From Egibacter sp. (GTDB taxonomy: Bacteria > Actinomycetota > Nitriliruptoria > Euzebyales > Egibacteraceae), in NCBI GenBank assembly GCA_003553795.1, contig PWFH01000054.1, positions 1-38,404 on the forward strand: a stretch of 38,404 nucleotides of DNA, given 5' to 3'. Below are positions 23,508-27,249 of this stretch, piece by piece. The first letter of the stretch is position 1, and the number at the start of each line of letters is the position of its first letter. The notes beneath the pieces are model-generated. The model did no database searches. It saw only the letters and a program-made list of their open reading frames with translations, and had not been told where the DNA came from. The position numbers and the translations under genes are program-made.

Positions 23508-25163
23508 TCATCGTCGGTACCGGTCGGGCGCACGTTGGCCTGCAGTGGGTGCGCCCTCCGGTCCCGCGCCTCGCGGCGGCCCACCGGGTGGCGCGCCGCA
23601 CCCCCGTCCGCGACGGCCCCTCGGGCGATCGACCCGGTAGGTCTCACCCTCGCGTTCGACGGTCCAACCGCGGTGGTGGATCCCGTGGTGACACGACGCA
23701 CAGACGAGCACGAGATTGTCGAGATCGGTGGGCCCGCCGTGCCGCCACCACAGGACGTGGTGGATCTGGCAGCGGGACGCGGGGGCCCCACAGCCGACAC
23801 ACCGGCGGTCCCGGGCGATGACCGCCTGGCGCTGGCGGCGGGTGGGCCGCCGCTCGGTGCGGCCGATGTCGAGGATCTCGCCGTTGCGCCCCTTGAGGAC
23901 CGGGGTGATGTCGGCGTCGCAGACGAGCTCGCGGGCGGTCGCCGAGCCGACGGGCCCGTAGCCGTCGAGCTCCGAGGCGAGCGCCCCCTCGAGGCCTTCG
24001 AGCGCCTCGAGGCTCGTGATGAGCAGGACGTGCGGGCGCTGGGCGGCGACCTCGGGTAGCTCGCCGGCGTCGAGGAGCTGCTTTGCGGCCAGCGCGAGCG
24101 CGTCGGCCTGACGTTGCCCGGGGTCGCGCTCGTCGTCGGCGCCGTCGCGTCGACCGAGCGAGTCGAGCAGCGCCCTGACGTGGGCGGCGGTGACCGGATC
24201 GAGCTCGCCGCTGAGGCGCGCCATCCCGTCGGGGCCCTGCGCGGCCCCGAGCCGCAGCCACCGACGCTCGTGGGCGCGGGCCTCCTTGGCCTCCTGGCTG
24301 TCGGTGGAGCGCTGGGCGTGCCAGTCGGCGACGCGGCGGGAGAGCTCGTGGGGCAGCTCGCCTGCCCCGTGCTCGGCGACGAGGTCGTCGAGCTCGGCGC
24401 GGGCGCGTCGATGGGCCTCGGGGTCCTTCGACAGGGCCGGGTCGCAGCCGAGCTCCCTGCTCGCCCGGACGGCGACGTCGAGGTGGCGGCGCTCAAGGTC
24501 GCCTGCGGCCAGTGCGCTCGCCGTCCGCGGCAGGAACTCGAGCTTGGCCGCGGCGGTGACGTCACGCTTGGCCTGCCCGAAGGAGGTCTGCCCGCGGTCG
24601 GCGAGCAACCCGGCGGTGGAGCTCGCCCCGTGCTCGAGGCAGACCTGCCGCTCATCGAGCGCGCCCACGCGCCGCAGGCGCTCCGCCGCGCAGCGTCGCT
24701 GGAGCCGCTCGAGCTCGTCGACCGAGTCGAGGAGACTCCATGCGGACACCGGCTCACCGACGGGAGGACCCGCGGAGGCGTCGGCACCCGGGGTCCCGGT
24801 CCGCCCATCCTCGTCGCCCTCTACGAGCTCGGCGCCGAGATGATCGAGGAGCAGGCCCGCCGCGGCGAGCACGTCCTCGGTCGCGATCGCGGAGCCTGGG
24901 GCACCGTGCAGCGCACGACCGACGAGGCCGACGAGCCCCCCGCCGTCAGTGGCCGCACCCGTCGACGTCGACTCTCCCACCGGCGCGCGCTCCGTCGGGG
25001 CCCCGGCGCCGAAGGATCCCCGCGCCGAACGCTCGCTCGCGACACGCCCGGCGAGCCCGTGCACGACGCCCCGCCCGGGGGAACGACGCCAGCCCCGGCG
25101 TGGTGCGGCACCGCCCGCCTCATAGGAGGCGGGGGCCTCGCGCGCGATCGGTATCGAACTCAT
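23508..25163 (-). CDS. DUF222 / HNH endonuclease-domain protein (13E12-repeat family)
   Basis: Protein of 551 residues. A central DUF222 region (~125-400) includes ERLQRRCAAERLRRV, AKRDVTAAAKL, RHLDVAVRASREL and GMARLSGELDPVTAAHVRALL. A C-terminal HNH nuclease domain (~455-510) reads CVGCGAPASRCQIHHVLWW, GGPTDLDNLVLVCASCHHGI, with CxxC...HH...N...CxxCH metal and catalytic residues intact. Such proteins are abundant in actinobacteria (mycobacterial 13E12 family). ATG 25163 lies inside a LexA box and 7 bases after a -10, so the mRNA is probably leaderless; GTG 25199 is upstream of that promoter and unlikely. Damage induction is expected. The nuclease role is unproven. Confidence 0.9.
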   Translation of the reverse strand: MSSIPIAREAPASYEAGGAAPRRGWRRSPGRGVVHGLAGRVASERSARGSFGAGAPTERAPVGESTSTGAATDGGGLVGLVGRALHGAPGSAIATEDVLAAAGLLLDHLGAELVEGDEDGRTGTPGADASAGPPVGEPVSAWSLLDSVDELERLQRRCAAERLRRVGALDERQVCLEHGASSTAGLLADRGQTSFGQAKRDVTAAAKLEFLPRTASALAAGDLERRHLDVAVRASRELGCDPALSKDPEAHRRARAELDDLVAEHGAGELPHELSRRVADWHAQRSTDSQEAKEARAHERRWLRLGAAQGPDGMARLSGELDPVTAAHVRALLDSLGRRDGADDERDPGQRQADALALAAKQLLDAGELPEVAAQRPHVLLITSLEALEGLEGALASELDGYGPVGSATARELVCDADITPVLKGRNGEILDIGRTERRPTRRQRQAVIARDRRCVGCGAPASRCQIHHVLWWRHGGPTDLDNLVLVCASCHHGIHHRGWTVEREGETYRVDRPRGRRGRGCGAPPGGPPRGAGPEGAPTAGQRAPDRYRR

Positions 25164-25199
25164 GTTCGAGAGTATGCCACGCAGCGCATGCCGCGTCAA
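25154..25199 (-). promoter_or_regulatory. LexA (SOS) box and leaderless promoter of the HNH gene
   Basis: TCGAACTCATGTTCGA at 25154-25169 is a perfect match to the actinobacterial LexA consensus TCGAAC-N4-GTTCGA. On the minus strand a -35 TTGACG (25199-25194), a 17-base spacer and a -10 CATACT (25176-25171) precede it. The expected transcription start falls at the ATG (25163), which lies within the four central bases of the box. LexA bound here would cover both the transcription start and the start codon. Confidence 0.85.
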
Positions 25200-25285: not shown

Positions 25286-25401
25286 CACCGCGGCCGAACG
25301 GTGAAGGCGACGGCCACGCACCGCGGCCGAACGGTGAAGGCGACGGCCCCCCACCGCGGCCGAACGGTGGAGGCGACGACTCGCTACCGCGGCGGACCGG
25401 T
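25286..25401. repeat. 33-bp tandem repeat, about 3.5 copies
   Basis: Copies begin at 25286, 25319, 25352 and 25385 (last one partial and diverged), each starting CACCGCGGCCGAACGGTG and continuing with GAAGGCGACG. The period is exactly 33 bases. The block lies between the LexA-controlled promoter and the stop of the NAGGN synthetase gene, outside any supported gene. The repeat contains CCGCGG and a GAACGGT element. The period is a multiple of three, so all frames stay open across it, but no start or domain supports translation. Confidence 0.9.
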
Positions 25402-25500: not shown

Positions 25501-27249
25501 CTACGCCCGCGTGGCCCGGCGGTTGCGCGTGAGCGGGAAGAGCAGGTCGACGAAGCGCTCGACGACCGGCTGCGGCTCGTGGTTGGCGAGCCCCGGGCGC
25601 TCGTTGGCCTCGACGATGACGTAGTCGGGCCCGGCGACGTCGGGCACGAGGAGGTCGACGCCGACGACGGGGATGCCGATGGCCTGCGCGGTGCGCACCG
25701 CGGCCTCGGCGAGCGCGGGGTGCAGGTCGGCGGTGACGTCGTGGATCGTCCCGCCGGTGTGGAGGTTCGCGGTCTTGCGGACGGTGAGCGCCGCGCCCTC
25801 GGGCAGGACGTCGTCGAGGTCGTAGCCGGCCTCGCGCACCGTCTGGCGGGTGTGGGCGTCGACGGGGATCGTCGACTCGCCGTGGGTGACCGCCGCGCGC
25901 CGGCGGCTCTGCTTCTCGATGAGCTCGGCGATCGTGTGCTGGCCGTTGCCGAGGATCTCGGGCGGCCGGCGCACCGCCGCGGCGACGACCTCGTCGTCGA
26001 TGACGACGACCCGCAGGTCGTCGCCGGGTGTGAACGCCTCGATGAGGACCTCCGGGCAGAAGCTCCGCGCGTGGGCGACGGCGTCGGCGAGGTCGGCGGG
26101 GTCGGTGATGCCGACGGTCACGCCGTTGCCCTGCTCGCCCCGCGCCGGCTTGACGACGGCCTCGCCGACCTCCTCGAGGAAGGCGACGTCGTCGCCGTCG
26201 CCGGTGGCCGCGCGCCCGCGTGGCACCGCGAGGCCGACCTTGCCGAGCAGCCGCCGCGTCACCCCCTTGTCGTCGCAGCGGCTCATCGCCACGGCATTGG
26301 TGAGCTCGGAGAGCGCCTGGCGCGTGACGATCTCGCGGCCGCCGTGGGACAGCACCATCTCGCCCCACTCGCCGTCGAGGACGCTCACGCTGATGCCCCG
26401 GCGCATCGCCTCCTCGGCGATGATCCGCGCGTAGGGGTTGAGGTCGTCGGGTGGCGGCGCGGCGGTGAAGAGCGGCTCGTTGATGGGGTTCTTGCGCTTG
26501 ACGCAGAACACCGGCACGCGCTCGAAGCCGAGCTTCTCGTAGAGGCGGATCGCCGCGGCGTTGTCGTGGAGGACCGAGAGGTCGAGGTAGGCGCGGGCGC
26601 GCGCCTGGTAGCGCTCGGCGAGGGTGCGCACGAGCGCCTCGCCGACCCCGGGCTTGCGCGCCTGGGGGTCGACCGCGAGGCACCACAGGCTCGCGCCGGA
26701 CTCGGGGTCGCCGAAGGCGAAGGCGTGGTCGACGCCGGTGACGGTGCCGATGACGTCCCCGGTGTCGGCGTCCTCGGCGACGAGGTAGGTGAACGTCGGC
26801 GTGAGCTGGTTGCGCCACATGACCTGGGGGTCGGCGGCGACCATGCCGTTGCGCTGGTAGAGGCGGTTCGTCGCGCGGGCGTCCTCCTCGGTGCGCATCT
26901 TGCGCACGACGACCCCGCGCACCGGCTGCCGGGCGGGGCGGTAGGCGTGCATCCACAGCCGGTAGGTGTAGGAGGGGTCGATGAAGAGCTCGTCGGGGGT
27001 GTGGGCGACGAGGACGTGGGGGTCGCGGAGATACAGGGCGACGTCGCGCTGGTTTGGGGCCTCGCGGCGCAGCTGCTCGGCGAGCGCGCCGTGGTCGTCG
27101 TAGGTCTGCCCGAAGAGCAGGCGCCCCCACCCGCAGTCGACGGCGACGTCGTGCTCGATGACGCTCGAGGCGTGCGACGGGCGCTGCTCCCAGGTCTTCG
27201 TCGACAGGGTGTCGCCGCGGTTGACGCGGTGGTCGTAGCCCTTGCTCAT
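25501..27249 (-). CDS. ngg: N-acetylglutaminylglutamine synthetase (GNAT + ATP-grasp)
   Basis: Cytosolic two-domain enzyme of 582 residues. An N-terminal GNAT acetyltransferase domain (~100-265) has LWCLAVDPQARKPGVGEALV (acetyl-CoA loop) and YLDLSVLHDNAAAIRLYEKL. The C-terminal ATP-grasp domain resembles cyanophycin-synthetase modules: DDKGVTRRLLGKVGLAVPRG, VVKPARGEQGNGV, LIEAFTPGDDLRVVVIDDEV, RKTANLHTGGTIHDVT, VGVDLLV and VIVEANERPGL (metal-binding Glu/Asn). This fusion makes N-acetylglutaminylglutamine, precursor of the osmolyte NAGGN. Start is ATG 27249, with AAGGAG eight bases upstream. It follows the amidotransferase gene on the same strand with a 31-base gap. Confidence 0.92.
   Translation of the reverse strand: MSKGYDHRVNRGDTLSTKTWEQRPSHASSVIEHDVAVDCGWGRLLFGQTYDDHGALAEQLRREAPNQRDVALYLRDPHVLVAHTPDELFIDPSYTYRLWMHAYRPARQPVRGVVVRKMRTEEDARATNRLYQRNGMVAADPQVMWRNQLTPTFTYLVAEDADTGDVIGTVTGVDHAFAFGDPESGASLWCLAVDPQARKPGVGEALVRTLAERYQARARAYLDLSVLHDNAAAIRLYEKLGFERVPVFCVKRKNPINEPLFTAAPPPDDLNPYARIIAEEAMRRGISVSVLDGEWGEMVLSHGGREIVTRQALSELTNAVAMSRCDDKGVTRRLLGKVGLAVPRGRAATGDGDDVAFLEEVGEAVVKPARGEQGNGVTVGITDPADLADAVAHARSFCPEVLIEAFTPGDDLRVVVIDDEVVAAAVRRPPEILGNGQHTIAELIEKQSRRRAAVTHGESTIPVDAHTRQTVREAGYDLDDVLPEGAALTVRKTANLHTGGTIHDVTADLHPALAEAAVRTAQAIGIPVVGVDLLVPDVAGPDYVIVEANERPGLANHEPQPVVERFVDLLFPLTRNRRATRA

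Follow-up and report, generated by a model that had tools for sequence, protein, structure and literature searches.

The closest described relatives of the gene studied here are the 13E12 genes of Mycobacterium tuberculosis. HNH genes of this family are discussed as LexA targets in the reconstructed regulon of that species (PMC4181829). Likewise, five putative HNH endonucleases appear among 24 M. tuberculosis genes that are near-silent without mitomycin C and that this drug induces in a RecA-dependent manner (PMC8151990). Another source writes REP13E12, HNH endonuclease and DUF222 as one category (PMC10589994). LexA control of 13E12 genes is already known. An HNH nuclease of M. smegmatis is described as lethal on overexpression (PMC9416677), and the lexA gene of M. 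tuberculosis as leaderless (PMC2897130). For Streptomyces, the positions of boxes with respect to start codons have been tabulated (PMC9380542). The published PafBC motif consists of TGTCGG, TGTCAG or TGTCAC, ten bases, TA, three bases and T (PMC8151990), and recA P1 depends on PafBC (PMC5656591). In the titles, abstract openings and passages of the literature searched, no description was found of an operator laid over the start codon, of dual motifs or of a ParB-like fold of DUF222. A paper on DUF2220 (PMC10123090), retrieved as a match for DUF222, proved to be unrelated.

We analysed one stretch of 38,404 nucleotides, hereafter the window. A gene of 551 codons plus stop lies on its minus strand (23508-25163). 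By its open reading frame and Pfam domains, it encodes a putative endonuclease of the 13E12 type. It shares with REP13E12 a DUF222/HNH protein, several copies per genome and an SOS box, the RecA-dependent induction being that of M. tuberculosis (PMC4181829, PMC8151990). The difference, compared by description, is that the passages on M. tuberculosis place the SOS boxes in front of the genes and mention neither an overlap with the start codon nor PafBC motifs. The lexA gene of M. tuberculosis resembles the window gene as an SOS gene whose translation start is also the transcription start, a coincidence that we infer for the window gene.

Our main reading, to which we give a probability of about 0.79, is that LexA would repress the window gene, which would be leaderless and encode a DNA-binding DUF222/HNH endonuclease of the 13E12 type. 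Operator, predicted transcription start and start codon are fused repeatedly in leaderless genes of the DUF222 family, and this seems new. So do the PafBC motif at many of these genes and the likely ParB/Noc-like fold of DUF222.

Box, promoter and start codon of the window gene

The plus strand of the window reads TCGAACTCATGTTCGA at positions 25154-25169, an exact TCGAAC-N4-GTTCGA palindrome. On the minus strand, this putative LexA (SOS) box is TCGAAC-ATGA-GTTCGA and would span -6 to +10 of the transcript. The ATG start codon (25163-25161) forms the first three bases of the four-base spacer. Upstream of it, on the same strand, lie a candidate -10 element, CATACT (25171-25176), and a candidate -35 element, TTGACG (25194-25199). 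The promoter therefore runs TTGACG, 17 bases, CATACT, 7 bases, ATG. The 7 bases between the end of the -10 element and the start codon, a spacing shared by relatives, fall within the 6-8 bases of a leaderless gene, and transcription would begin at the ATG itself. The original prediction had described a perfect palindrome with the ATG in its central spacer, which is exactly what these positions hold. It had also proposed a -35/-10 pair with 17-base spacing that puts the start at the ATG, and the predicted promoter elements agree with it.

A chance palindrome at 25154-25169 was rejected. From base composition, 0.0004 exact boxes would be expected for the window and 0.04 for the whole genome of 3.13 Mb; the genome has 4, against 0 for the backward control pattern. 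With up to two mismatches the window contains 8 boxes, seven of them two-mismatch sites. The mean of shuffled sequences is 1.5, and none of 100 shuffles reached 8. The whole genome has 300 boxes at this level against 157 for the backward control, so that loose matches prove little singly.

The nearest upstream in-frame start is a TTG at codon -11, within the -35 element. Downstream, in-frame GTGs stand at codons 34, 62, 98 and 139. Codons 1-50 show no clear bias of GC between codon positions (0.76/0.76/0.78). The case for coding from the ATG is therefore made by promoter geometry and relatives, not by codon bias in this gene. Because of this missing bias, and since residues 1-75 are modelled as disordered, the start could lie further downstream.

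Between the promoter of this gene and the 3' end of an ORF on the same strand (25501-27249), there is a 33-base tandem repeat of 3.5 copies (25286-25401). The ORF presumably resembles a GNAT/ATP-grasp protein.

The layout in the same genome and in the phylum

Besides the window gene, exact boxes precede the lexA gene of the same genome and a DUF6504 gene. Counted from the first base of each box, the lexA ATG follows at 100 bases and the DUF6504 gene at 120. The fourth lies upstream of a DUF222 gene on contig C117 (L035, 1395-1410). A DnaE-type polymerase gene, taken as dnaE2, is preceded by a one-mismatch box. The lexA, DUF6504 and polymerase genes have no start codon inside their boxes. The exact box at lexA and at the DUF6504 gene, with the one-mismatch box at the polymerase gene, points to this sequence as the LexA site of the organism. 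The window box is the same as that of lexA, as in a LexA/SOS regulon. The spacing is another matter: an operator placed as at lexA is ruled out for the window gene, with the box on the ATG against 100 bases. As far as sequence can indicate, the SOS reading of the window gene is well supported.

By eye, the exact box of the C117 gene seems to lie between the -35 and -10 elements, and the ATG beyond this promoter meets a stop after two codons.

A profile search of the genome returned 8 DUF222 matches on 7 contigs, so the family is present in several copies. Two of these matches are pieces of one gene on C3, and the one on C70 is under the cut-off. Among the one-mismatch boxes, 12 read TCGAACATGTATTCGA, and each opens a frame that begins with MYSTT. 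These twelve starts read CATACT-TCGAAC-ATG-TATTCGA, which places the box at the start codon in a second DUF222 family. Their promoter consists of TTGACA, 17 or 18 bases (by eye) and CATACT immediately before the box, the hexamer being identical to that of the window gene. In 10 of 10 distinct upstream sequences, positions -13 to -1 are invariant and several spacer positions vary. Seven partial MYSTT ORFs were tested. Four, of 173 aa or more, match the DUF222 profile (E 1.3e-12 or better); the 143-aa one has E 0.23, and two shorter ones have no match to this profile. Pfam alone gives 18.6 bits, under its cut-off, for one truncated copy. The MYSTT ORFs end at contig ends, ahead of any HNH part. 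The C70 match is one of these copies.

The MYSTT starts are on C31, C57, C59, C61, C70, C86, C97, C100, C118, C134, C182 and C203. They lie near contig ends, which suggests that near-identical copies broke the assembly.

A third family, MRSTT, has three starts. Read by eye, they show TGTCGGAG-N8-CATGAT-N6-ATG-TCG-AAC-ATG, that is, a PafBC-type promoter, its motif included, with an ATG just before the box. The 99-aa visible part has no DUF222 profile match, and the assignment to DUF222 rests on likeness, by eye, to the DUF222 gene on C220. The genome also encodes, on C178, a tandem pair of WYL proteins resembling PafB-PafC. Motif positions and spacings in MYSTT, MRSTT, L035, L337 and L338 were counted by eye from the sequence.

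These results answer two further points of the original prediction. It had asked whether other DUF222/HNH genes of the genome have the same layout; the twelve MYSTT starts carry the box at the start codon, with the HNH parts outside the visible ORFs. Its proposal of SOS control gains support from the exact box before lexA and the one-mismatch box before the polymerase gene. Mycobacterial 13E12 genes with LexA sites, on which it had drawn, are discussed in PMC4181829.

DUF222 is present in 109 of 296 genomes drawn from Actinomycetota. We took 89 DUF222 loci, 29 automatically and 60 by hand among the matches listed, before promoters were read. The hand-picked loci were limited to four per genome, and matches near the domain start were preferred. 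After excluding L131 (no upstream sequence), L098 (short) and three at contig edges, 84 genes from 51 genomes were compared. The lexA and recA genes came from 30 of the sampled genomes, with the recA loci L187 and L192 excluded.

The best box has at most one mismatch in 38 of the 84 DUF222 genes and at most two in 55, against 0 and 1 for the backward pattern; the remaining 29 have none at two mismatches. In the relatives, a box with up to two mismatches precedes 28 of 30 lexA genes and 27 of 28 recA genes. At this level, an in-frame ATG lies inside the box in 20 of 55 DUF222 genes and is absent from it in 35. This separates them from the sampled lexA genes, with 1 in 28, and from recA, with 0 in 27. 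With at most one mismatch, the counts are 17/38 for DUF222, 1/23 for lexA and 0/21 for recA. When ATG, GTG and TTG are all counted (up to two mismatches), they become 21/55, 7/28 and 1/27. An ATG in any frame occurs in 28 of 38 DUF222 boxes with at most one mismatch (lexA 6/23, recA 3/21). Since only 17 of those 28 are in frame, some in-box ATGs stem from the base preference of LexA.

Aligned on the 20 in-box ATGs, positions -13 to -8 resemble TAnnnT (T in 15, A in 12, T in 15). In two of the 20, L047 and L079, the -10 element points to an ATG 15 bases downstream, which is the likelier start and leaves the box over the -10. L064, L066, L067 and L119 have an in-frame start 28 bases beyond the first base of the box; the ATG within the box is in another frame. 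Other DUF222 genes carry the box over the -10 element or upstream of the start, not on the ATG. The operator thus takes several positions in this family, and it often, not always, overlaps the start codon. Two deposited homologues are annotated as starting at the very codon that promoter geometry predicts, 6-8 bases past the -10 element (counted by eye). The observation made in the window is real and more general than first thought.

Upstream of the -10, the alignment of the 20 ATGs also shows TGTCR. The motif TGTCR-N11-[TC]AnnnT, of the RecA-independent PafBC type, occurs at 40 of 84 DUF222 genes, 24 of 28 recA genes and none of 30 lexA genes. At twelve other spacings, from 5 to 17, it is found in 0 to 6 of the 84 DUF222 genes. 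In this the family resembles the RecA-NDp/PafBC promoters of the recA P1 type. It differs from them in that an in-frame ATG, GTG or TTG follows the PafBC-type -10 by 6-8 bases in 28 of 84 DUF222 genes against 2 of 28 recA genes. The window gene differs too: reading its upstream sequence by eye, we did not find the motif. Among the 28 leaderless DUF222 genes with a PafBC promoter, 15 have a box with up to two mismatches (8 over the start, 4 over the -10 and 3 elsewhere). The corresponding figure for genes without such a promoter is 40 of 56. Genes with the PafBC promoter have the box no more often, which speaks against a general link between the two elements. Two-key control was rejected as a general rule on these counts, and the odds of the two-key reading were lowered accordingly.

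About 85,000 species were scanned with a pattern that names no gene, TGTCR-N11-TANNNTCGAACNNATGTTCGA, which joins the PafBC motif, the box and the ATG. It gave at least 118 sites in at least 117 stretches, against 0.02-0.23 expected from composition. We take the 80 listed titles to be from Actinomycetota, save one saying only 'bacterium'. Among the matches listed, 102 had enough sequence for a comparison of frames: that of the boxed ATG runs open for at least 150 codons in 84, and the two others do so in 3 and 13. Of the 118 ORFs, the locus end truncates 14 before they reach 150 aa, and 8 meet a stop at less than 60 aa. Of these 84 long ORFs among the matches listed, 72 are DUF222 by our own HMM, built from the separate phylum sample. 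Pfam adds 4 over its cut-off, in a re-scan of 8 of the 12 long non-matches (all save L251, L257, L291 and L299). Among the listed ORFs of 60 aa or more, 76 of 105 match the DUF222 HMM. With a register-6 pattern, 24 sites turned up in 15 of 396 genomes; among the matches listed, the control had 0. DUF222 accounts for 15 of its 17 ORFs of 150 aa or more, and 5 of the 24 sites open frames under 60 aa. Both patterns require TA in the -10 element and so miss the window gene and the MYSTT copies, which have CATACT.

The protein and its resemblance to ParB/Noc

Pfam assigns residues 147-452 of the window protein (23808-24725, minus strand) to DUF222 (PF02720, E 2.7e-35, 122.6 bits against a cut-off of 24.4). 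An HNH match follows (PF01844, E 2.7e-9, 37.5 bits against 21.4). The HNH nuclease motif covers residues 455-498 (23670-23801, minus strand) according to Pfam, alignment and structure comparison. Its residues C455, C458, H469 and C488 are invariant across 46 aligned sequences. The model of the whole protein has a pLDDT of 73, and its HNH part resembles the nucleases TagI, McrA and IscB (Z 7-8). By sequence, the HNH part matches IscB with E 7e-6.

Several other assignments were tried and rejected. The NCBIfam models for IscB (35.8 of 175 bits) and for restriction of PT-DNA (16.6 of 180 bits) are far under their cut-offs, both on the HNH part. As a known defence family, the only candidate is a weak DpdF match from PADLOC over the same part (E 6.4e-4). 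Phage cargo was rejected because P0001 matched 1 of 50,697 phage records, the match covering 20% of its length. Plasmid cargo was rejected too: among 72,556 plasmid records, a mycobacterial member had matches in 3, two of which we judge chromosomal-looking from their neighbours.

Inside DUF222, residues about 154-284 (24312-24704, minus strand) resemble ParB/Noc in profile and, with less certainty, in predicted fold. The model of residues 138-305 has a pLDDT of 94. When this model was compared with solved structures, the best 9 rows of 221 aligned chains were ParB, Noc or Spo0J (Z 9.5-7.0), and the best unrelated row had 6.9. The rmsd of these rows is 2.1-2.9 in eight and 7.7 in one. For residues 154-284, Z reaches 9.5, with rmsd 2.5 over 101 residues. 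These values are to be read with the warning of the structure tool that helical models with Z under about 13 may share only a common arrangement. Searches of the PDB with Foldseek alone, made with the whole model and with the domain, yielded nothing at E 0.001 or better, and ParB/Noc structures rank there at E 3.3 and worse.

A separate comparison used profiles. With hhalign, a DUF222 profile of 87 domains matches the ParB HTH profile from the same genomes with E 3.8e-5 and probability 71. A second DUF222-ParB alignment gave E 4.9e-4 and 6.3e-4, with probabilities 32 and 28. The controls (lexA, recA, reversed and 10 shuffled) ranged from E 0.17 to 0.77. The likeness to ParB/Noc consists of the profile-profile match and, less firmly, the predicted fold of residues 154-284. 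The difference is that Pfam gives the window protein DUF222 and then an HNH motif, without a ParB domain. That part of DUF222 is a ParB/Noc-like domain is likely, not proven, with the fold match less conclusive than the profile match.

Proposed mechanism, alternatives and wider use of the layout

The box, its geometry, its recurrence and the DUF222 and HNH domains are read directly from the sequences, and they carry the main reading. For the behaviour of LexA and polymerase, induction, strength of repression, DNA binding and cutting, we infer the following course. A sigma-70-type RNA polymerase would use TTGACG-17-CATACT and start at the A of the ATG. In the undamaged cell, a LexA dimer on -6 to +10 would obstruct the polymerase right where transcription begins. 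Once DNA is damaged, RecA filaments would trigger self-cleavage of LexA. An mRNA without a 5' untranslated region would then be made and translated at once. A leaderless transcript offers no space between promoter and coding sequence in which an operator could sit, so that the operator would have merged with the first codons. This merging would explain why many proteins of the family begin with MFD or MFE (ATG at box offset 8) or with MxS (offset 6). Part of the relatives also have a PafBC motif upstream. The protein probably binds DNA by the ParB/Noc-like domain and cuts it by the HNH domain.

The alternative closest to this course keeps the box as a real LexA operator over the transcription start and gives the gene a leader, with translation from the GTG at codon 34, 62, 98 or 139. 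It would fit the lack of codon-position bias in codons 1-50, the disorder modelled for residues 1-75 and the start 28 bases past the first base of the box in L064, L066, L067 and L119. Against this, the ATG stands exactly 7 bases past the -10, and so it does in relatives. L071, L102 and L125 have no upstream in-frame start, and for L125 no in-frame start other than the boxed ATG is listed ahead of the domain. The open frames of the gene-blind matches listed (84 of 102 against 3 and 13) also speak for the boxed ATG. We consider a leader unlikely. The same open-frame bias weighs against the idea that the in-box ATG is a coincidence, spelled by the spacers that LexA prefers while the gene merely starts nearby. 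The ATGs found in any frame, 28 against 17 in frame for DUF222 boxes with at most one mismatch, and those in lexA and recA boxes lend it substance. However, the excess of in-frame ATGs over lexA and recA and the fixed distance of the -10 hexamer make it very improbable.

The palindrome might instead be read by a regulator other than LexA, such as a repressor of the ArsR type whose site is similar. The ArsR consensus of E. coli is described as resembling the mycobacterial SOS box (PMC8151990), and an ArsR regulator is reported to act on an HNH nuclease gene of M. smegmatis (PMC9416677). With the identical box before the genome's own lexA, the near-identical one before its polymerase gene and the boxes before nearly all lexA and recA genes of relatives, we hold this to be extremely improbable. 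From the reading as a leaderless gene under LexA follows a compact rule, open to test, of the way in which an SOS operator could act on genes without a 5' untranslated region. This reading may also explain the extended SOS motif of M. tuberculosis, MKWM-TCGAAM..., whose published form (PMC4181829) reads like a partial -10 hexamer fused to the box.

A broader scheme is speculative, and we regard it as rather doubtful. Actinomycetota would possess a large chromosomal set of HNH nucleases with a ParB/Noc fold and compact damage-switch promoters. Some of these would be two-key, with PafBC activating from the -35 side and LexA leaving the +1 and start codon before a leaderless mRNA is made. The nucleases would cut at particular sites and be set free by DNA damage alone. 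They would act on repeated loci of the cell itself (gene conversion, spread of copies), or serve last-resort self-cutting or defence against elements. The window gene would belong to a LexA-only branch. The findings also provide an abundant family of unknown function with a promoter code for the damage response and with a fold that may bind DNA, and its role (repair, self-cutting or mobility) becomes directly testable.

The layout is not exclusive to DUF222. The scans also found it at an ImuA' gene (L223), at an IrrE-like peptidase (L238) and at proteins of unnamed families (L200, L231 and L255). The ImuA' gene (L223:4965-5597, minus strand, NCBIfam 3.9e-38) starts inside a LexA box behind a PafBC-type promoter. 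A second ORF (L316:1513-2349), with an ImuA' match below the cut-off, has the register-6 layout. The mutasome may share the layout. The L255 protein, which has no NCBIfam match, is a small one of 111-115 aa that begins with MFEHWPE (L255:2372-2704, also in L293 and L212). It shows the full layout of PafBC motif, LexA box and in-box ATG, and the titles of L255 and L212 name Nocardia.
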